Shown here piece after piece: positions 35,276 through 45,775 of a stretch of DNA of 64,000 nucleotides. Every line of letters starts with the position of its first letter. Positions within the stretch are counted from its first letter, which is position 1. The notes beneath the pieces were generated by a model. It was given only the letters and a program-made list of their open reading frames with translations, did not search any database and had not been told where the DNA came from. This stretch comes from Deltaproteobacteria bacterium GWC2_55_46 (GTDB taxonomy: Bacteria; Desulfobacterota; GWC2-55-46), in contig LVEI03000001.1 in the NCBI GenBank assembly GCA_001595385.3, forward strand, positions 558,001 through 622,000, in the 5' to 3' direction. The position numbers and the translations under genes are program-made.

Positions 35276-35406
35276 CAGGCTGCTTGAAAAACCATATGCG
35301 AGGCCCTATTGAAATGGGGAGCGAGGAAGAAAGGCGTACTTCTTTGGTACGCCGTAGTAGAAGCCTCTGAAGCCAACTACGCGGATGGATATTTTAGAGC
35401 AGCCTG
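35276..35406 (-). repeat. Dispersed palindromic repeat A, copy 3 (abuts pilX stop)
   Basis: A 131 bp element, CAGGCTGCTTGAAAAACC at the left, CATATGCGAGGC block, central GGCGTACTTC/GGTACGCC dyad, and AGAGCAGCCTG at the right. It ends at 35406; the pilX TAG occupies 35407-35409. On the coding strand GTAG directly precedes the repeat. Confidence 0.85.
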
Positions 35407-36696
35407 CTACAGCCTCTTCCACAGGATTATCGACGAAGTGCTGTTCTCCTTGGCGACGTCCTCAAGGGTTGCCTGGTCGTATGAGACCGTTATATTGCCG
35501 TTTATCGAGACGGTATTGTCCGCCATTATGCCGCCTGTGACGTTCAGCTCGCTGCCGCCGCCTGAAAGGGTGAGCGTGCCGAATACGTATATCAGCCCCT
35601 CATAGGTGAGGCTCCCGCTGAGCTTGAGATCGCCGGTGACGACAAGTATGCCGCGCCCGGTGAAGTCGCCGGATATCTCGGCCTCCTTGCCTCCGGAGTT
35701 GTCTATGTAGATCATGGTCGAATAGGTGTCCCCGGCCGCGTCGCCCCAGTCCTGGACAACGGTGTCTATCTTGCCGCTCGCCGGCATATCGTCACCCGAA
35801 GCGCTGCATGTGGCGTTCTTGCACTGATGCTTCTCGCTTGCGAAGTCTATTATCTTGGATATATCCTCGCCCAGGTATGTGGTCATGTCGTCGTTTGCCT
35901 TGGCGGCGCAGCCGGCGAGGGTGTCGTCGCAGGTAGTGCAGCCGCCGCCGCCTGCCTCCTTGACGCCTCCGGTTATATTAGATGCGCCTCCGGATATGGA
36001 GATGCACGAGTTGGTATTGATGGCCCCTTCGGTATCGGTATTCAGGTTGCTTGAGCCCACATAGGCGACGACAGTCCTGGTCGTGCCGTTGGATGTGCCT
36101 ACAGATGTCACCTCGTATACCGGGAGCTTGCCGTAGCTTATGTATGTGGCGGTGTCGGCGAGCTTGAAGTCCCTGCCGTACATGACTATCTCGACAGGGC
36201 TGGCGTTGCAGGTCCAGGATGCAGGTGAGGTAGAGGCGTTCCCTGAATTGTTTGGCCCTGCGCCATTGCTGTCGCAGAAGCCTTCGGGGTTCGTCTCGTC
36301 GAGGTAGCTGATAGTCACGGCATAGTTAAGGTTATCGGCGCTATTCCTGTCGCCTCCCACGTCGACGCCGAAGTCCTTTGAGCCGTCCGAGTTCCATGTG
36401 GTCGTCCGGTATCCGGCATCCCCTGTGAGCTCCCCTACGTGCCTGGCGTTCCCTGTCGGCAGATGGAGCCTCGACATCGTCTCGTTTATCCCAGCCTCCG
36501 CCAGCTGAAAGGCGGTCTTGGCGTCGCGCTCGTTACGCGAGAGCTGAACGTCGGTGGTCATGTTCATCACCAGGCTGAGGCCTATTATGGTCATCGCCAT
36601 CATGGTGACGAGCGCGAGTATAAGGATAAAGCCACGCTCGTCCCCCGCCGTCCCCTTAAGGGTAGATCTCCTGTCAGTTCGTCTCATTCCACTCAT
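35407..36696 (-). CDS. pilX: PilX-like minor pilus assembly protein
   Basis: A 429-residue PilX_N family protein. N-terminal membrane segment after a basic start (ERGFILILALVTMMAMTIIGLSLVMN, about 20-45), then the PilX signature SRNERDAKTAFQLAEAGINE. A cysteine-rich region (about 240-300) holds CISISGG, GGGGCTTCDDTLAGC and CKNATC. The C-terminus (about 330-415) repeats short beta-strand units such as GILVVTGDLKLSGSLTYEG, resembling polymer-forming beta-solenoid segments. PilX-type proteins help initiate the pilus. It overlaps pilW by 23 bp; its stop abuts repeat A. Confidence 0.85.
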   Translation of the reverse strand: MSGMRRTDRRSTLKGTAGDERGFILILALVTMMAMTIIGLSLVMNMTTDVQLSRNERDAKTAFQLAEAGINETMSRLHLPTGNARHVGELTGDAGYRTTTWNSDGSKDFGVDVGGDRNSADNLNYAVTISYLDETNPEGFCDSNGAGPNNSGNASTSPASWTCNASPVEIVMYGRDFKLADTATYISYGKLPVYEVTSVGTSNGTTRTVVAYVGSSNLNTDTEGAINTNSCISISGGASNITGGVKEAGGGGCTTCDDTLAGCAAKANDDMTTYLGEDISKIIDFASEKHQCKNATCSASGDDMPASGKIDTVVQDWGDAAGDTYSTMIYIDNSGGKEAEISGDFTGRGILVVTGDLKLSGSLTYEGLIYVFGTLTLSGGGSELNVTGGIMADNTVSINGNITVSYDQATLEDVAKENSTSSIILWKRL

Positions 36697-39600
36697 TTGA
36701 ATACCCGCTCTCTTCCGGCGTCCCGCAGGTGTCGTAGGCCGTAAGCTTGAAGTAGTATATCCTCTGGTTCAGGTTGCCCTGGTCACCCTCGACAATAACT
36801 GAGGTAGAACCCGAGTCCGCCGTAGTACGCAGGAACCAGTCGGCGACTATGTCGCTCCCGGTGCAGTTGGGTTTGTTCTTGGCGCAGACCTTCTCGTAGA
36901 CCCGGTAGCCGGCAAGGTCCGTTATCGCCGAGTTGTCGGTATTCTGCGTTACAGCCGTCCATGAAAGTGTCACATTCTGCCCTGTGACAGAGCCGCTTAA
37001 GCCCGTAGGGGCCTTCGGGGTATTGGTGCACGGGTCTACCACAACGCTTATGGTCTTGGTCGTCGGCGAGGCGTAAGGATAATAGACCGAGATGGTGTCA
37101 GTCGTAAGCGTCAGGAGCTTGCCGCTATCGGTCACGTCGCTGGTCGTAGTGATGGTCTTGTTGAAGGTGCCTGTGGCCGCGCCGGTCTCGGTTATGGTCG
37201 GGGCGTACTCGTCCGGAGCGAGGCTCGTTGTCTTGAACCCGGTAAAGCCTGCCGTGGTGTTTATGGTCTCTATCGTCGTTCCGTAGGTATACGGGGCGTC
37301 GTTCCTCATGGCGAGACAGTCGACTATCGTCACATCGAAGCTGTCGCCCCTGTATATCGAGGTCGGGCTCACGGAAAGGGTCGCCTGGCTGGTACTGCCA
37401 ACGCAGGTGGCGGCGGTATTGGAGGCGCTGCTCAAGCGCTCCTCGGTCGAGCACGAATTAAGCGCCTTTACCGTATAGCTGTATACGCCCGTGGCAACGG
37501 TATCGGTATAGGTAAGGCCGGCCTGGTCGCTCCCTTGCTGAGTCCCATTCCTGAATATCCTGTAGGTTATGCTGTCAGAAGCGTCGATAGAGGCGCCGGA
37601 GGTGTAGGTTGTAACGGCATCCCATGACAGAAGAGCGGATGCCGCGCCGCCCGTGGAGGTGAGGTTCGCAGGCGCGCTCGGCGTCACGTCGCAGACGTCA
37701 AAGTCCATCTGGTCGTAGACATAGGCCCCGTAGTCAATCTCCGGGTCCCGGTCCCAGTTGCCGTCGTTGTCGACCGCGACGATATAGTACCAGACGCGGT
37801 AGCCGTCGCTGGCGGGGATGTCCGCGCTCCAGATGTTGCCGCCGGTGTTCGTCATGGCTACGGCAGTATATCCGGAGGCCGGCGCCGTGGTCGTCGTCTT
37901 GACGGTTGTCTTGTAGTAAAGGGTAGCCGAAGAGACAGCCACCTTTGAGCCGGTGCTCGCGTCGGTGGTGTTGCCTGCTATGCTGGCCGATACCGTGACG
38001 GTAGCGCCTGAATCGACCACGACTTCCCCGTCCGACCCGGATGGTACTGTGTTAAGGCCGGTAGAGCCTGGCACGGCGTACCCGAAGGTCGGGCTCGAAG
38101 GCTTGTTCTGCTGCGTGGCCGTGATACTCGGGCCGAAGGGCACGGATATGCCTTCGGAACTTAACGAGACGGTCAGGTAAGATACGCAGGAAGATACGCC
38201 GGTAGAGTCGTTGGTCACCTGGAGCGTTATGAGGAGTTGGTCGTCCCGCATATCGACATAGCTATCGCTTGCGTCCTTGAAGGTGAAGGTCATGGGCACG
38301 TACCTTGCTCCCGCTGGCACAGTCGATGAGGCAAGGGAGGCGTTCGAGACCACTCTCGTGTAAGGCGAGCTGCCGCCGGAGGCCGTAAGACCAGCGGCAA
38401 GGCTCGTGGTAATCGTACCCATGCCGCTCCTGCCTCCGCCTATCTTTATCTCCCTTAAGTAGGCCGAGGAGTTCACCCAGTATACGGTCGCTCCGGTTAT
38501 GGTCATGGTGCCGGAGCTGGTGTTGTTGAGGAACATGGTGACGGTATTGTGCCTTTGCGCCGATGTTACAGAGCTAGACCCGTTGCCAGAGCCGGTGGAG
38601 CTGTCGATATCGACCCCGGTGAGCACGGCCCTGTGGTCGTCCTTCGTGCAGCCCCCGGCGCCAGGGCACTTCTCGTCCCTTATGATGCTCCCGGGCATTA
38701 CAGGGCCGAGGAGAACCGAGTTGAGGTAGCCGGAGATCATGTTGGCCCGTATGGTAGCTTCAGACGGGTTCATCTTCTCATATGGGCAGTCGGTCGTAAC
38801 GATACGGTAGTAATATGTCGTGCCCTCCGAGGCTGTGGTGTCGTTAAAGGACGATCCCCAGTAGGGGGCCACGCCGGAGATCATGGTCGATGCCGAGAAA
38901 TCCGCGCTCGTCGACCTGAATATCCTGTAGCCGGCGAGGTCGAACGGGTTATCCGGGGTAGAGCCCAATGGGTTGCTCGTATCGCTCGGCACCTGGGTCC
39001 ATGCAAGTGACACTGGTGTTGAGCAGCAGGAGACGCTCGCGCTGGTTACGGCCGGCGGCTTCTCGCCTGAGGGCGGATCCTCGTCGCAAAGTATCGTCGT
39101 ATCCTGCGCGCCGGTAGGGGCTGACCCTCTTGAGCACAGGTTAAAGGCCACAGCCCTGTAAGAGTAAGTGCCGGTATCGGCGAGCGCAGGCGGGCCAGGG
39201 TTCTCAAGTGTCATCGAATCGTGCCAAAATGAGGTCGACTGCGACCTTTGCAGCTCTGCTACCGTAAATACGCCGCCAGAGTCGGGGATGAGCCTCGCGT
39301 CCGGCGTCATCGATGTATTTACCTGATAGCAGCCTGAAGCGAGCGGGTAAGTATCCGTGTCGGTCAAAAGCTCAGGGTACGTCGCGCTTTCGTTGACGTA
39401 AACGCATGTATGGCTTACCTCCGGCTCATCCGGCGGAGGCGACACCGGCGGCTGAGTAAGGGAGACCGCGACCCTCTTCCATCCGGCGTTAGCGGAAATT
39501 GACGGGGCCGACGGAGCGGTTGAGTCATTGGGGGCTGTATCAGAGCCGGTTACAGAGGCAAAGCCGGTTCCGGCGGAGCAGGCTGTGGAGCCATCGCCGC

Positions 39601-41065
39601 AGGTGGCGTCGTAATCGTCCTGGACGTACTTCTCCTCGTCGGAATCGCCGCCGGAATCGGATATAAGGGTCGTGTCGCACTTGACCGGGGCGATGGCGTA
39701 ATAATACGTCTGGCAGCCGGTAAGGCCGGTATCGGTAAAGCTCGTGGCTGTCTGGCTCAATATAGTTGGTTTGCCGCTTCCAGTCTCTCCGGCTATCCAC
39801 TCGACCTCAGTCTGGGTCGCCGGGTCGAGCGGGTAATCGGAGAAGGGGCTCTCTGACCTGTAGACCCTGAAGCCAATTACGTCCGGGTTGTTAGTTGTGT
39901 CATAGGCTGTCCAGCTAATGGCCACCTGACCGTCCGAGGAGCCGTTTGCGCCGGAAAACCCTGTTACCGCGGAGGGCTTGACGGGGTTGAGGGTCGAATC
40001 ATCTGAGCCAGCGTCGAAAACAGAGTTGCTCCCTGCCGGGTTGCCGTAGACCTCGGAGGAAAAATCGCTGTGGTTGAGGGAATTGTCATATGCCTTTACA
40101 GCAACGTAATATGTAGTGGTAGAGCTTCCATCGGAAGGCGAATAGGATAGCGTCGGAAGACCAGGCGCCATCGTGCACTCATAGTCCGAGCCCGTATCCG
40201 AACAGGTATAGTTACTCCCGGAAAGGATGGTCGTCGGTACGTTCACGACGCCCTCATAGCTTCCGGACGAGACGCCGTAATATATCTTGTAGCCCAGGAC
40301 GTCGCCCTCGGCGTTCTTTGTCCATTTCACCTTGAGCCTGCCGCAAAGCCCCGGGTCCCTCACCTGGATGCCCGTCGGGCCGGCTGGCGCATCGCTGTCA
40401 TTGGCGACCTGCCCGAGTCCGATGTTACGAAGCCTTATGTGTGTTTCAAGCGTAAAGGTCGCCGGCGCTCCGGTGCTCCCTATATTCGACTTTGTACGCG
40501 TCACCATGTTGACGGTCACGAACTTTACGCTGTTCCGGTCTGGCTGAGTCGACGTATCGGCGATCTCTGCGCCGTCGAGGTCGTAATAGGTAAATGTTAT
40601 GCTGTTCACGTACGGGGCCACCTGCTCGGTAGAGCCTGTCGTCGCGTCACTTAAGTTGTCGGTCTTTTTTACGAGGTACTGGACGCCGCCGGTGGTCTGC
40701 AGCCAGTACTTGACCTTGAGCCTTTTCCCGGCGGTGAGGCTTAAAGAGGTGTCGGTCTCAGGGTCCGTGTATATGAACTCGATCAGGCTTGAGGTGGCGT
40801 CGGTTATGACGTCCGCGGTACCGGCGGCATATCCGGCGTTCATCAATTCCCTTTCGAGCATGTTAAGAGAGACCCTCGCGTTCTGCTGTGCCTCTACCTT
40901 CAGGTCTTCGATCTGCGACTGCTTGAAGAAGGTAGTGTAAAGGGAGTAGATGGCCAGGGAAACGACCGAGGTTATCACTATCGCTATGAGGACCTCGACC
41001 AGCGTAAAACCCCTTTCGCGGAACCGTCCGGGCCTTGTTATGAGTGACATGCAATTGTGGGCCAT
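36674..41065 (-). CDS. pilW: Giant PilW-like minor pilin fused to multiple fibronectin type III domains
   Basis: One uninterrupted frame of 1463 residues. The N-terminus is a classic prepilin: RERG^FTLVEVLIAIVIT with cleavage expected after G19 and Glu5 of the mature form at E24. A PilW-like pilin head extends to about residue 220. Then about six fibronectin III-like domains follow (roughly 225-345, 365-475, 520-670, 680-790, 1160-1245, 1370-1460) with recurring GYKIYYG / GFRVYRS / GYRIFRS / YYYRIV strands, plus an extra beta-rich segment (795-1155) and paired cysteines. Normal PilW is about 300-400 residues. It is expected at the pilus tip, exposed outside. AAAGG precedes the ATG by 8 nt. 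Lies between pilV (4 bp) and pilX. Confidence 0.88.
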   Translation of the reverse strand: MAHNCMSLITRPGRFRERGFTLVEVLIAIVITSVVSLAIYSLYTTFFKQSQIEDLKVEAQQNARVSLNMLERELMNAGYAAGTADVITDATSSLIEFIYTDPETDTSLSLTAGKRLKVKYWLQTTGGVQYLVKKTDNLSDATTGSTEQVAPYVNSITFTYYDLDGAEIADTSTQPDRNSVKFVTVNMVTRTKSNIGSTGAPATFTLETHIRLRNIGLGQVANDSDAPAGPTGIQVRDPGLCGRLKVKWTKNAEGDVLGYKIYYGVSSGSYEGVVNVPTTILSGSNYTCSDTGSDYECTMAPGLPTLSYSPSDGSSTTTYYVAVKAYDNSLNHSDFSSEVYGNPAGSNSVFDAGSDDSTLNPVKPSAVTGFSGANGSSDGQVAISWTAYDTTNNPDVIGFRVYRSESPFSDYPLDPATQTEVEWIAGETGSGKPTILSQTATSFTDTGLTGCQTYYYAIAPVKCDTTLISDSGGDSDEEKYVQDDYDATCGDGSTACSAGTGFASVTGSDTAPNDSTAPSAPSISANAGWKRVAVSLTQPPVSPPPDEPEVSHTCVYVNESATYPELLTDTDTYPLASGCYQVNTSMTPDARLIPDSGGVFTVAELQRSQSTSFWHDSMTLENPGPPALADTGTYSYRAVAFNLCSRGSAPTGAQDTTILCDEDPPSGEKPPAVTSASVSCCSTPVSLAWTQVPSDTSNPLGSTPDNPFDLAGYRIFRSTSADFSASTMISGVAPYWGSSFNDTTASEGTTYYYRIVTTDCPYEKMNPSEATIRANMISGYLNSVLLGPVMPGSIIRDEKCPGAGGCTKDDHRAVLTGVDIDSSTGSGNGSSSVTSAQRHNTVTMFLNNTSSGTMTITGATVYWVNSSAYLREIKIGGGRSGMGTITTSLAAGLTASGGSSPYTRVVSNASLASSTVPAGARYVPMTFTFKDASDSYVDMRDDQLLITLQVTNDSTGVSSCVSYLTVSLSSEGISVPFGPSITATQQNKPSSPTFGYAVPGSTGLNTVPSGSDGEVVVDSGATVTVSASIAGNTTDASTGSKVAVSSATLYYKTTVKTTTTAPASGYTAVAMTNTGGNIWSADIPASDGYRVWYYIVAVDNDGNWDRDPEIDYGAYVYDQMDFDVCDVTPSAPANLTSTGGAASALLSWDAVTTYTSGASIDASDSITYRIFRNGTQQGSDQAGLTYTDTVATGVYSYTVKALNSCSTEERLSSASNTAATCVGSTSQATLSVSPTSIYRGDSFDVTIVDCLAMRNDAPYTYGTTIETINTTAGFTGFKTTSLAPDEYAPTITETGAATGTFNKTITTTSDVTDSGKLLTLTTDTISVYYPYASPTTKTISVVVDPCTNTPKAPTGLSGSVTGQNVTLSWTAVTQNTDNSAITDLAGYRVYEKVCAKNKPNCTGSDIVADWFLRTTADSGSTSVIVEGDQGNLNQRIYYFKLTAYDTCGTPEESGYSNEWNETN

Positions 41066-41069
41066 CGTC

Positions 41070-41564
41070 TTAACCTTTCGTCCTCATGGTTGCTAAGGTG
41101 ACGCTCTTGGTGGCGTGCCAGAGCGCGTCTGTCCATGAAACCGTGACATCTATCCTTTTCAGCCCGTCAAGGGTGGGGTTGGCGACCCCGTTTCCGCTGA
41201 GATCGATATATGTGACCGTATACGACCAGGTGAAGCTCTTGTTGCCTGAGGTGAGTGTGGCGTCTACCGGCGTGCATGAGTATACGGGCCTGCTGACGGA
41301 AGCGCTCGTCTGCGTGCAGTTCCTCCTCAAGTCCGCCCTTGGCGCGGTCGTATCAGTGACCTGGATATTGTTGTAATCGACGCTAAGAAGAGCCTCGAGC
41401 TTTTCCTGCGAGAGATTATTGGCGAGAGACATCGACTGGCTGTAGCCGGAGTTCTTCGCGGCGGTCCCAGCGAGCCCGGCTATCCCCAGTATGCCTATGG
41501 AAAGGATGGTCATGGCTATAACGACCTCTATCAGGGTGAAACCGTCTTCAGTACGCCATCTCAT
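41070..41564 (-). CDS. pilV: PilV-like minor pilin
   Basis: A 164-residue prepilin. Leader MRWRTEDG, cleavage at G8, then FTLIEVVIAMTILSIGILGIAGL with mature Glu5. The rest fits PilV/GspI: AAKNSGYSQSMSLANNLSQEKLEALLS then a beta-rich C-terminus with cysteines. Processed by PilD and expected to prime the fibre with FimT, PilW and PilX. Five bases separate its TAA from pilW. Confidence 0.9.
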   Translation of the reverse strand: MRWRTEDGFTLIEVVIAMTILSIGILGIAGLAGTAAKNSGYSQSMSLANNLSQEKLEALLSVDYNNIQVTDTTAPRADLRRNCTQTSASVSRPVYSCTPVDATLTSGNKSFTWSYTVTYIDLSGNGVANPTLDGLKRIDVTVSWTDALWHATKSVTLATMRTKG

Positions 41565-41567
41565 GAC

Positions 41568-42026
41568 TTAGCACCCCTGGGAAACGGTTATCATGCCCGT
41601 TGTCCCTGTCACGTTTATCTGCATCCTGTCGTCAGACTTCTGGGTATTATTGACGCATATAGTAGTGGCGGTAGCGGCCCCGTTCGTGTAGAACTGCACG
41701 GAGAAAGTATCGCCCGGCGAGGTTATATCTATCCCTGCGCCCAGCTCTCCCTGCCCCCTCGTTGGGTAATCGACCCAGGCGCCGCCGCTATAGATCCAGA
41801 GGTTATAGGTGCCGCCGGAGAAGTCCACCCGGAAGGAGGTGTTCTGGGCTATGGCCTTGAGGCGCGCGGCGTTGAGCTCGGTGGCTACGTCCCTCACGGT
41901 CCTTGTAAGCCTCAAGTGGGACAACTGGGAGATGATGGAGGGCGCGGCGATGGCCATTAAGATGGTGGCCAGGGCTATGACTATTATGAGTTCGACGAGT
42001 GAAAAGCCTTTTGAACGTCCAGACAT
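41568..42026 (-). CDS. fimT: FimT/GspH-like minor pilin
   Basis: A 152-residue prepilin. From the ATG at 42024-42026 the leader is MSGRSKG, followed by FSLVELIIVIALATILMAIAAPS with Glu5. GspH/FimT signature LRLTRTVRDVATELNAARLKAIAQN, and a C-terminal ICVNNTQ...QGC with a likely disulfide. A GTG seven codons upstream is in frame, but AAGGG with a 9-nt spacer favours the chosen ATG. First gene of the minor-pilin operon behind a sigma-54 promoter. Confidence 0.9.
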   Translation of the reverse strand: MSGRSKGFSLVELIIVIALATILMAIAAPSIISQLSHLRLTRTVRDVATELNAARLKAIAQNTSFRVDFSGGTYNLWIYSGGAWVDYPTRGQGELGAGIDITSPGDTFSVQFYTNGAATATTICVNNTQKSDDRMQINVTGTTGMITVSQGC

Positions 42027-42039
42027 ATACGCCATCCCT

Positions 42040-42057
42040 TCAGACACTTCTGTCTGA
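42040..42057 (-). other. 5' stem-loop of the fimT leader
   Basis: TCAGACA-CTTC-TGTCTGA, a perfect 7 bp stem placed right at the expected transcription start of the sigma-54 promoter and just upstream of the fimT Shine-Dalgarno (CCCTTC on the plus strand, 42036). It could stabilise the mRNA 5' end or tune translation. Confidence 0.45.
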
Positions 42058-42067
42058 GGTGATTAAA

Positions 42068-42083
42068 AGCAAATGCCATGCCA
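42068..42083 (-). promoter_or_regulatory. Sigma-54 promoter of the fimT-pilV-pilW-pilX operon
   Basis: Minus strand TGGCATGGCATTTGCT: consensus TGGCAC-N5-TTGCW with the invariant GG (-24) and GC (-12) at the exact 10 bp spacing and a single mismatch (T for C). Expected start near 42057, 31 nt before fimT. The NtrC-type regulator gene ends 65 bp upstream. Confidence 0.8.
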
Positions 42084-42148
42084 AAACCTAAGTAGCTGAT
42101 TTTATTCAGGTCAGATGAGGCGGGGTGTCATGGAACTATGCACATATT

Positions 42149-43483
42149 TCATAGTCCGTAACTTTTTATCTTATAAAGAAGGGCCCTGTGGCTTATCTCA
42201 AGGAGGGCGGCGGCCTTTGTCCTGTTATTATGGGTCTTCTCGAGGGCCTTCATTATAAGCTCCCTCTCGGTCGATTCATGCGCCTTTTTTATAGAGAGGC
42301 CCTGCGCCTCTGCCGGGCGAGGGCCGGAAAGTATCGGGAGAGATCCCTTGCCTATCGTCCCGGCCTCTTCGAGTATCATCGCGCGCTCTATGACGTTCTC
42401 AAGCTCCCGTATGTTGCCGGGCCATGGATACGAGGTAAGGGCATCCATAGCCTCTTTTGAGATCTTCTTGCAGCCTTTACCGAACCTGGCCGAGTACTTC
42501 CCCACAAAATACTCGGCGAGGGCCGGTATATCCCCGGCACGCTCCCGCAGAGGAGGAAGCTTTATCTCTATCACGTTAAGCCTGTAGAAGAGGTCGTCCC
42601 TGAACGTACCCTTGTTTACCTCAGCCCTCAGGTCTTTGATAGTAGCCGCCACTACCCTGGTATCTACCTTGCCGGGCTTGTTGTCCCCTACCCTCCTGAC
42701 CTCCCCCTCCTGCAATACCCGAAGGAGCTTTACCTGCAGCTCGAGCGGCAGCTCTCCGGCCTCGTCCAGGAAGATGGTCCCTCCGTCCGCCTCCTGGAAA
42801 AGCCCGGTCTTGTTCCTGTGCGCGTCAGTGAACGCGCCCTTCACATGGCCGAAGAGCTCGCTTTCAAGGAGCGGGCCGGGTATCGCGCCGCAGTTGACGA
42901 CCACGAAGGGACTCGATGCCCTGCTTCCGCAGTAATGTATCGCGCGGGCCACAAGCTCCTTGCCAGTGCCGCTCTCGCCGGTTATAAGGACGGAGGTTGA
43001 ATAATCAGAGACCTTTTTCACAAGCTCAAGGATAGCGAGCATCCCGGCGTCAGAGGTGCGTATCCTTGAAATATCGTACTCCCTGGCCGCCTCTTCCCTG
43101 AGCCTCAGGTTCTCCTTCCTGAGCCTCTCCCTCTCCTCGGCCTTTTTAACAGTCAGTATTATCTCGTCGGCCTTGAAGGGCTTTGATATGAAGTCGTACG
43201 CGCCGAGCTTCATGCACTCTATCGCCGTATCCATCGTGCCGTAGGCGCTCATCATGATAACGGTCTTTGACGCGCCCCTTTCCTTAAGGGCCTTCAGGAA
43301 GGCTACCCCGTCCATGCCGGGCATCCTGATATCCGACAGAATGAAATCAAAGTACTCGTTCTCAAGGCACTCAAGCGCCTTGGCGGCATCCGCAAACGAT
43401 ACCGTCTCGTAGCCCTCTTTCCTGAGGATGACCGAGAGCATATGCCGCATCGACTCTTCGTCGTCTATTATCAATATCCTCAC
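42149..43483 (-). CDS. pilR: Sigma-54-dependent response regulator PilR-like
   Basis: A 444-residue NtrC-family activator. Receiver (1-120) with Asp in LSDIRMPG; AAA+ domain (about 140-375) with Walker A GESGTGKELVARAIH, sigma-54 contact loop GAFTDA, Walker B GGTIFLDEAGELP, arginine finger region YRLNVIEIKLPPLRERAGDI; C-terminal Fis HTH ending KAAALLEISHRALLYKIKSYGL. The contact loop is GAFTDA rather than GAFTGA. GTG start overlapping pilS by 4 bp (GTGA). Probably activates the sigma-54 promoter just downstream. Confidence 0.92.
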   Translation of the reverse strand: MRILIIDDEESMRHMLSVILRKEGYETVSFADAAKALECLENEYFDFILSDIRMPGMDGVAFLKALKERGASKTVIMMSAYGTMDTAIECMKLGAYDFISKPFKADEIILTVKKAEERERLRKENLRLREEAAREYDISRIRTSDAGMLAILELVKKVSDYSTSVLITGESGTGKELVARAIHYCGSRASSPFVVVNCGAIPGPLLESELFGHVKGAFTDAHRNKTGLFQEADGGTIFLDEAGELPLELQVKLLRVLQEGEVRRVGDNKPGKVDTRVVAATIKDLRAEVNKGTFRDDLFYRLNVIEIKLPPLRERAGDIPALAEYFVGKYSARFGKGCKKISKEAMDALTSYPWPGNIRELENVIERAMILEEAGTIGKGSLPILSGPRPAEAQGLSIKKAHESTERELIMKALEKTHNNRTKAAALLEISHRALLYKIKSYGL

Positions 43484-44994
43484 TGCTGCCTCCCTGCGGG
43501 AAGGGCCACGGTGAAGACAGAGCCTTCCGCGGATGTCCTGAAGGTTATCTCCCCGCCGTATGCCTTGATTATGGACTGGGAGACGAAGAGCCCGAGGCCC
43601 GTCCCCCTGCCAGCCTCTTTGGTGGTGAAGAACGGGTCGAATATGCGCTTGGCGTGCTCTTCGGCTATTCCATCGCCTGAGTCAAGAAAAGATACGCAGA
43701 CGTAGTCCCTTTCAGCCGCCTCGCCCGGAAGCGGAGGGTCGTCCTTGCGCCTTCGTACAAGCGGCGTAAATGGCCTCTTTTCGATCCCGGTCGATATCTC
43801 GATCGACTTGACATCTTGGCCCTCCATCGAATGAGCCGCGTTTATAAGGAGGTTTACGAATACCTGCCTCAATTTGCCCTCGTCAGCCATGACCTCCAGC
43901 GGGGCTTCCCTCATGCCGAGCTTTACCTCGACCGCCTTGAAATCCTCACGCAGCGACAGCTCCGAGAGAGTCTCATTCAGGAGCGAGTTCACGTCTACAG
44001 GCGAAAGGGCGGCCTTCGTAGGCCTGGCCACCCCCAGAAACTCCCTTACTATGGTATCGATCCTCGCGACCTCCTTCGAGGCCCCCTCGATTATCTCCGT
44101 TTTCTCCGCTGGCTCAAGCCCGCCTCTGCCCAGCAGATCGACGTAACCGCGGAGCGCCCCAAGAGGGTTTCCGATCTCGTGGGCTATACCCGCGGCGAGC
44201 CTCCCCACAGCGGCAAGGGTCGAGGAGCGAAGAAGCTCATCCTGCGCCGTCACAAGGTCCAGGTTCACGCGCTCAAGGCTCCTTATCTCTTCTTCAAGCC
44301 TCTCAGCCATGCTGTTGAAGGATGACGCGAGGCTCCCAAGCTCGTTGTCGATATCGACCCTGGCGCGCTCATAGAGCTTGCCCCCGGCTATCCGGGTAGC
44401 CGCCTCCTCGAGCCGCTTAAGAGGGCTTACAACAGAACGGGAGAGGAAGAGGATGCCAACGCCGATTATTATGGCGGAATCGAGGAGGGCATAGAAGAAT
44501 AGAAACCTTCTGGCCCCGGAAAGCTCTGAGCTTATATCGTGAAGGTCGAGGAGAAGCTCGAGCGTGCCTTGCCCCTTGCCCTGCCATTCCATCGGGGCAA
44601 AGATACGGAGCGACTCTCCAGCGCCCTTGAACCAGCCGCCGCCGTATACATAGGCCTCTATGCCGTCATCCGCGGCGAAAAGAGCGCCTCTGTCCACGGG
44701 AAGGGCGCCTTCCGTAACAGCGATCCTGCCGTCCGGGCCGGTGAGCCTGAAGGCCGATATCCCGGCCTCCCTCAAGACAGCGGCCGTAAGGGCCGCCGCC
44801 TTTCCTTCGTCCTCGATCCTGAAAGAGGCGCGGACGATCCTGACCATATCCCCGGCCTGGCTCGCCTTCCAGAAAAGGGCACTTCTCTCCACTATCTTGA
44901 CGCTCAGAAGGCCTATGAGCCCGATGCCCGCCAGCGTCATAATGACAATGGCGGATGTGAGCTGGAACCTGATCCCCAGTCTCTTTTTTCTCAT
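43480..44994 (-). CDS. pilS: Sensor histidine kinase PilS-like
   Basis: A 504-residue membrane kinase. Start taken at the ATG 44992-44994, one base after the pilD stop; a TTG eight codons upstream is in frame. First TM about 8-31 (LTSAIVIMTLAGIGLIGLLSV), periplasmic region to about 165, second TM about 168-185 (FLFFYALLDSAIIIGVGILFL), HAMP (RSVVSPLKRLEEAATRI), HisKA with phospho-accepting His in AHEIGNPLGALRG, HATPase with NLLINAAHSM, DSGDGI and GRGTGLGLFV. It should phosphorylate the adjacent PilR-like regulator. Unlike classical PilS it has two rather than six TM helices. Confidence 0.9.
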   Translation of the reverse strand: MRKKRLGIRFQLTSAIVIMTLAGIGLIGLLSVKIVERSALFWKASQAGDMVRIVRASFRIEDEGKAAALTAAVLREAGISAFRLTGPDGRIAVTEGALPVDRGALFAADDGIEAYVYGGGWFKGAGESLRIFAPMEWQGKGQGTLELLLDLHDISSELSGARRFLFFYALLDSAIIIGVGILFLSRSVVSPLKRLEEAATRIAGGKLYERARVDIDNELGSLASSFNSMAERLEEEIRSLERVNLDLVTAQDELLRSSTLAAVGRLAAGIAHEIGNPLGALRGYVDLLGRGGLEPAEKTEIIEGASKEVARIDTIVREFLGVARPTKAALSPVDVNSLLNETLSELSLREDFKAVEVKLGMREAPLEVMADEGKLRQVFVNLLINAAHSMEGQDVKSIEISTGIEKRPFTPLVRRRKDDPPLPGEAAERDYVCVSFLDSGDGIAEEHAKRIFDPFFTTKEAGRGTGLGLFVSQSIIKAYGGEITFRTSAEGSVFTVALPAGRQQ

Positions 44995-44995
44995 C

Positions 44996-45775
44996 CTAAA
45001 CGCCCGTTGCCCGCGCAATGTACCAGGTTATGATCCAATCGCCGAAAAAGAGGTGTACCGCTGCCCCGAGGGCAAGGAACGGCCCGAAGGGGATAGCGTA
45101 CCTGCCGCCCTTGCCAAAGGCGAGCATCAATATGACGCCTATGACAGCGCCAATGAAGGAGCCGAAAAGAAGCGTCACGATCACGCCCTTCCAGCCGAGG
45201 AAGGCGCCTATCATGGCAAGAAGCTTTACATCCCCTCCGCCCATGCCCTCATGGCCTGTAGCCATGTAATATCCCCAGGCCACCAGGAAGAGTATCCCGC
45301 CGCCGGCTATGGCGCCTATGAATGAGTTGAGGACCCCTGGGTAAGGGAGAAAAAACGAGGCCACAAGCCCAATTGCCACGCCCGGCAGGCTTATGACATC
45401 CGGTATTATCTTAAGGTCGAGGTCGATGAAGGTGATGACGATGAGGGCGCAAATAAATACGAAGTAGACGATGGCCTCAACGGAGAGCCCGAACCGTAAG
45501 ACGGTAAAGAGGCCGAAAAGGCCGGTAGCGGCCTCGACGACAGGATACCTTAAAGAGAACGGCTCGCCGCATGAAGAGCACCTGCCGCGCAATATGATAT
45601 AGCTTAGAACGGGGATATTAAAATAAAAGGGGATGCGCCTGGAGCAGTTCGGACAGCTTGAAGGAGGGGAAACGACCGAGAGCCCAAGGGGGACCCTGTA
45701 TATGCAGACGTTGAGGAAACTGCCGATTATGGCCCCAAAAACGAAGGGCAGGATCAATATGAAGTCTTCGGACAT
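44996..45775 (-). CDS. pilD: Prepilin peptidase PilD
   Basis: A 259-residue bifunctional prepilin peptidase/N-methyltransferase. Two CxxC pairs in the cytoplasmic loop (CPNCSRRIP and CSSCGEP, about 41-72), then multiple TM helices with the aspartyl catalytic motifs DLDLKIIPDVISLPG (first Asp) and GGGDVKLLA (GxGD). It cleaves the leader of FimT, PilV and PilW-type prepilins after Gly and methylates the new N-terminus. It is directly followed by pilS (1 bp). Confidence 0.96.
   Translation of the reverse strand: MSEDFILILPFVFGAIIGSFLNVCIYRVPLGLSVVSPPSSCPNCSRRIPFYFNIPVLSYIILRGRCSSCGEPFSLRYPVVEAATGLFGLFTVLRFGLSVEAIVYFVFICALIVITFIDLDLKIIPDVISLPGVAIGLVASFFLPYPGVLNSFIGAIAGGGILFLVAWGYYMATGHEGMGGGDVKLLAMIGAFLGWKGVIVTLLFGSFIGAVIGVILMLAFGKGGRYAIPFGPFLALGAAVHLFFGDWIITWYIARATGV

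Follow-up and report, generated by a model that had tools for sequence, protein, structure and literature searches.

The minor-pilin genes and the adjoining regulator pair

The window analyzed here is a 64-kb stretch of the genome of Deltaproteobacteria bacterium GWC2_55_46, and the minor-pilin genes in it are all carried by the minus strand. The first of these genes, fimT (41568-42026, with an ATG at 42026), encodes a GspH/FimT-type prepilin of 152 amino acids with matches to the N_methyl and GspH domains. It is followed by genes for a pilV-like minor pilin (41070-41564; TIGR02523, with a score under the cut-off of this family), a pilW-like prepilin of 1,463 amino acids (36674-41065; N_methyl), and a pilX-like minor pilin (35407-36696; PilX_N). 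Given that a terminator-like stem-loop with a T-rich tail lies after pilX on the same strand (35333-35353; likely the operon end) and that a sigma-70-like site (35123-35095) precedes pilM, the operon probably runs from fimT to pilX. The pilW-like gene is very large and, by eye, contains repeated fibronectin-like stretches. The designation pilW(FN3), proposed earlier in a reading of the sequence without database searches (hereafter, the sequence-only reading), agrees with this visual impression, but no FN3 hit was obtained with Pfam. This large prepilin may have a tip or adhesin role. A search of the genome for PilY1 produced no match, and none was detected in 14 controls either.

The same reading described a 7-bp stem-loop just before the ribosome site, and such a structure is indeed present at the predicted 5' end of the mRNA (TCAGACA-GAAG-TGTCTGA, 18 nt; 42057-42040, minus strand), where it abuts a Shine-Dalgarno-like AAGGG (42036-42040, minus strand) located 9 nt before the ATG of fimT. 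Seven base pairs in this position, along with a slight folding excess over the 25 RR-fimT loci introduced below (mean z = -0.43; Stouffer -2.1), would fit a functional regulatory element, for mRNA protection or ribosome-site control. However, we consider such a role rather unlikely: the stability of the window hairpin is ordinary (z = -0.75, with 47 of 200 shuffled sequences folding as well), and across the 25 loci, the stems vary in place and sequence, with several loci having no stem. For a 45-nt stretch, the value was z = -1.82. In the absence of a consistent stem among the relatives, the hairpin was set aside as a conserved RNA element.

Upstream of fimT, likewise on the minus strand, the window encodes an NtrC-family response regulator (RR; 42149-43483), a histidine kinase (HK; 43480-45018), and the prepilin peptidase PilD (44996-45775; A24 match). 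The RR, a predicted activator, contains a receiver domain, an AAA+ domain with Walker motifs and a GAFTGA-type loop that reads GAFTDA, and a Fis-type HTH domain. The kinase consists of two hydrophobic segments followed by HAMP and HisKA domains. Thus, the previously described NtrC-family gene directly upstream of the pilin genes and the accompanying kinase are both there, the kinase gene being the more distant of the two.

The name PilSR given to this pair, by contrast, does not hold. Elsewhere in the genome, 150 kb from the window pair, there is a pilB-pilT-pilC-pilS-pilR-pilA row, and only the pilA-linked kinase of this row contains the 6TM_PilS domain, which is absent in the window kinase. 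In a phylogenetic tree of 25 hand-chosen regulators, the group linked to pilD, pilM, or fimT, to which the window RR belongs, is separate from the group linked to pilC or pilA, with support values of 98/95. The recognition helix of the pilA-linked PilR also differs from that of the window RR. Considering the separate pilSR-pilA unit, the lack of 6TM_PilS, and the position of the RR in the tree, the window pair is not PilSR, which corrects the assignment of the window regulator as PilR. The gene order pilD-HK-RR and the grouping of the window RR with the RR of a Corallococcus pilD-HK-RR-pilM locus point instead to a pair like PilS2R2 of Myxococcus xanthus. By these sequence criteria, the RR and the kinase are a second, PilS2R2-like pilus regulator that is distinct from PilSR; judging by gene order, M. 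xanthus PilS2R2 is probably the orthologous pair. There is no clear box or dyad of the kinds described below in the Corallococcus locus. A Geomonas locus also has the order pilD-HK-RR, followed by a gene for a long secreted-type protein (pilY1 by our own reading) and prepilin genes, with no recognizable box.

The promoter box before fimT

The gap between the RR gene and fimT contains, on the minus strand, the sequence TTGGCATGGCATTTGCT, within which the box proper, TGGCATGGCATTTGCT (42068-42083), is preceded by a T. The sequence-only reading had claimed a match to the sigma-54 consensus with exact -24/-12 spacing at this site, and this is what we found: GG at -25/-24 and GC at -13/-12 in a TGGCAY-N5-TTGCW context. 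If C42069, the C of GC, is taken as -12, the predicted transcription start falls at about 42057, in agreement with the start proposed before.

The exact pattern TGGCAYN5TTGCW matches the 64-kb window only at fimT. When one mismatch is allowed, the window contains five sites compared to 2.15 expected, so that by itself, it provides weak evidence for the box. In the shuffled 475-base upstream region, a 7/7 box appears by chance with a frequency of 0.0002, and a box of 6/7 or better with a frequency of 0.0047 per shuffled upstream region. The genome-wide motif scan that had been suggested as a check identified 20 exact sites in 2.79 Mb compared to 2 in the reversed control; by our own reading, 17 of the 20 are followed by an open frame on the same strand with a possible start at most about 175 bp downstream. 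The genome also encodes RpoN (E = 4e-62). Of the 19 exact boxes on contig 1, five lie on the 3' side of a same-strand sigma-54 activator domain and at most 1 kb away from it, compared to 0.066 expected, and none of 20,000 random placements reached five boxes beside activator domains. Thus, activators that adjoin their own targets are a habit of this genome.

Two other exact boxes deserve mention. One (L018, 1501-1516; G000:C1:2233145) directly precedes what by eye is an lpxC-like start; control of lpxC by a sigma-54 regulator has been reported in Desulfovibrio (PMC3333781). The other (L019, 1501-2025; G000:C1:2476753) is 3' of an activator gene and is followed by about 500 bases without a long open frame on the same strand, where a small RNA may be encoded.

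For the comparison among relatives, FimT was searched in 59 genomes, namely, that of the window and 58 relatives. A match was obtained in 57 of the 59, and the comparison covered 30 loci. Exclusion of L040, in which the contig begins inside the gene, left 29 loci, 25 with the same RR gene upstream of fimT and 4 without it. The box is conserved at the orthologous position, the RR-fimT gap, in 24 of the 25 (18 at 7/7 and 6 at 6/7, the window included), and in none of the four fimT loci lacking the upstream RR; these loci are related to one another, so that the counts are not independent and are inflated by relatedness. The sole exception among the 25 is L038, where the corresponding sequence is TAGCATGGTAATTGCA, with AG in place of GG.

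The dyad, the IHF-like element, and the composite arrangement

Alignment of the 25 loci by the box made apparent a dyad, CTATG-N9-CATAG, which in the window occupies positions -97 to -79 (42136-42154, minus strand), within the range of about 70-150 bp upstream where the activator site would be predicted. It spans CTA TGA, the last codon and the stop of the RR gene. The dyad is perfect (10/10) in 13 of the 25 loci and scores at least 9/10 in 16; the best score among the 19 other exact boxes in the genome is 7/10, and the score is 5/10 at pilA, which has a near-box, TGGCACGCCAGATGCA, without a dyad. The final leucine codon is CTA in 18 of 24 RRs compared to 30 of the 1,122 other leucine codons of the same RRs (2.7%), which indicates that the DNA itself is under constraint, although the binomial test of this excess takes no account of relatedness. 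In L029, where the stop of the RR gene has shifted to an earlier position, the non-coding DNA behind it contains a perfect dyad that is longer than the others. In L046 (G058), the RR gene and fimT are parted by two small inserted open frames, toxin-antitoxin-like by eye; the dyad, TATGAAAAAATTTCATA, and the box are retained beside fimT, the dyad being close to the promoter and more upstream than in the other loci.

A good dyad is missing from 9 of the 25 orthologous promoters, which counts against the explanation that we favor. Part of this variation goes with the regulator: wherever the dyad scores at least 9/10 (16 loci), the RR has SHRALL as its recognition helix, and this helix is altered in 4 of the other 9 loci (Fisher p = 0.010, or 0.003 if L046 and L048 are taken as canonical). 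This association does not explain L026, L037, and L045, where the helix is the usual one, yet the right half of the dyad is changed. Taken alone, the half-site pattern TATG-N9-CATA shows no enrichment in the genome (26 sites compared to 24 in the control) and was rejected as a stand-alone marker of a regulon.

The activator site suggested in the sequence-only reading was GTGTC, which does lie at 42125-42129 of the plus strand (GACAC at -72 on the minus strand) but is present in only 5 of the 25 orthologous promoters, so that it was rejected as the main activator site. As judged from conservation, the dyad is the better candidate and is the predicted activator site that we prefer.

Between the dyad and the box, at -44 to -32, there is an IHF-like element, AATCAGCTACTTA (42089-42101, minus strand), that matches the IHF consensus WATCAANNNNTTR at 8 of 9 positions. 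In 24 of the 25 loci, the start of a block of this type falls between -45 and -43. Scores of at least 8/9 against this consensus were obtained for 16 of the 25 loci versus none of the 19 other exact boxes of the genome. Homologs of ihfA and ihfB, for the alpha and beta subunits of IHF, are encoded in the genome.

A search of 63 genomes of the class for the composite pattern, a dyad and a box separated by 45-65 bases, detected it in 18 genomes, exactly once in each, with no matches in the reversed control; accordingly, this genome contains no second composite site. All but one of the 18 composites lie between an RR of this type and a prepilin operon. Thirteen are fimT loci already obtained in the FimT search. 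The other five were checked, and four of these agree: the composite has the RR gene on one side and a prepilin gene on the other, and fimT was not found as the first gene; the exception is L185. In L183 (G005), fimT has shrunk to a remnant, and the composite still stands in front of pilV. In L185 (G058), which is on a short contig, the composite precedes a gene that by eye is STAS-type, the only one of the 18 off a prepilin operon. No composite was detected in 12 genomes outside the class, Corallococcus included. In a set of loci limited to the best 33 of 80 by score, Geobacter sp. OR-1 was found to have both a dyad and a box, but their distance of about 107 bp exceeds the allowed gap; this locus (L052, 7350-7500) has the order pilD-HK-RR, and its TATG-N9-CATA dyad and box precede a thiol-disulfide interchange-like gene (by eye) rather than a pilin gene. 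Thus, by sequence, the arrangement of RR gene, dyad, IHF-like element, and box holds within one class.

Proposed control of the operon and comparison with known systems

The conserved elements and their spacing argue strongly that the fimT-pilV-pilW-pilX operon has a sigma-54 promoter and that this promoter is switched on by the adjoining upstream RR of the PilS2R2-like pair. We infer the following sequence of events. The kinase (43480-45018) would phosphorylate the RR, dimers of which would assemble on the dyad (42154-42136), where the RR gene ends. With the DNA bent by an IHF-type protein at 42101-42089, the AAA+ ring of the RR would then remodel the RNA polymerase-sigma-54 complex at 42083-42068. 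The transcript would then extend from near 42057 to the terminator near 35333. The direct PilSR control of these four genes that had been postulated before is retained with respect to the sigma-54 promoter and to its most likely activator, the NtrC-type regulator next to it, but not with respect to the PilSR identity of the pair.

Alternatively, the promoter could be real but driven at fimT by the pilA-linked PilR or another sigma-54 activator, the neighboring RR having other targets. The genome offers many candidates, with 21 PF00158 matches, 18 of them strong, and some activators act at a distance (PMC2725144). We nevertheless regard this possibility as improbable: pilA has no dyad, the recognition helix of the PilR encoded beside pilA is not that of the window RR, and the dyad overlaps the gene of the neighboring RR in an RR-promoter order that is kept among the relatives. 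Direct PilSR control via GTGTC sites is very unlikely. An NtrC-type RR and a kinase do adjoin the pilus operon, and the GACAC at -72 is kept in close relatives, but this motif is scarce among the 25 loci, the window kinase differs from the pilA-linked one in the lack of 6TM_PilS, and the RR falls in a different clade. Finally, that the box is a functionless chance match, as the surplus of one-mismatch sites in the window would allow, is barely credible, because 24 of the 25 loci conserve it with fixed spacing and the composite had no match in the control for the 63 genomes.

Under the preferred scheme of activation by the adjoining RR, the analysis offers PilR2-like regulators a target, together with a well-defined site of 19 bp to which binding is predicted. 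Tentatively, one might go further and suggest that pairs of the PilS2R2 type are a widespread second pilus regulator that sets the supply of minor pilins via a dedicated sigma-54 promoter, with PilSR setting the major pilin. Minor pilins prime pilus assembly, so that a separate switch would set pilus starts independently of the amount of major pilin. If true, this would account for the action of M. xanthus PilS2R2 on pilus assembly, the mechanism of which has been called unknown (PMC11841059). In the literature searched, a collection with few subscription papers, no minor-pilin genes were described as being controlled by a PilR2-type regulator from a sigma-54 promoter.

In Pseudomonas aeruginosa, AlgR controls fimU-pilVWXY1E directly, and this minor-pilin operon is not known to have a sigma-54 promoter or an NtrC-type activator. 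FimS-AlgR and Vfr, acting on fimU-pilVWXY1E, likewise provide minor-pilin regulation apart from PilSR-pilA (PMC6058289, PMC5979040). M. xanthus PilS2R2 is, similarly, a second NtrC-type pair in a pil cluster (PMC11841059, PMC6211767, PMC6060248, PMC8570273). The Corallococcus pilD-HK-RR-pilM locus encodes an RR that groups with the window RR and differs in having no box, dyad, or composite. In Geobacter sulfurreducens, the activator gene is also directly upstream of its RpoN promoter in the PilR-pilA unit, and the RpoN consensus given there, TTGGCACGGTTTTTGCT, resembles the box described here (PMC2725144). The RR in that unit belongs to another clade and has another target, and the pilSR-pilA unit of the present genome itself has no dyad. 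A parallel in the order of elements is pilE of commensal Neisseria, controlled by RpoN, IHF, and Npa/Nps: an activator site, an IHF site, and GG-N10-GC follow in the same order as the predicted elements here, and an activator with a kinase partner likewise controls a pilus gene (PMC6528607). The Neisseria target is the major pilin, whereas here, it would be a minor-pilin operon, with the predicted activator site overlapping the end of the regulator gene.
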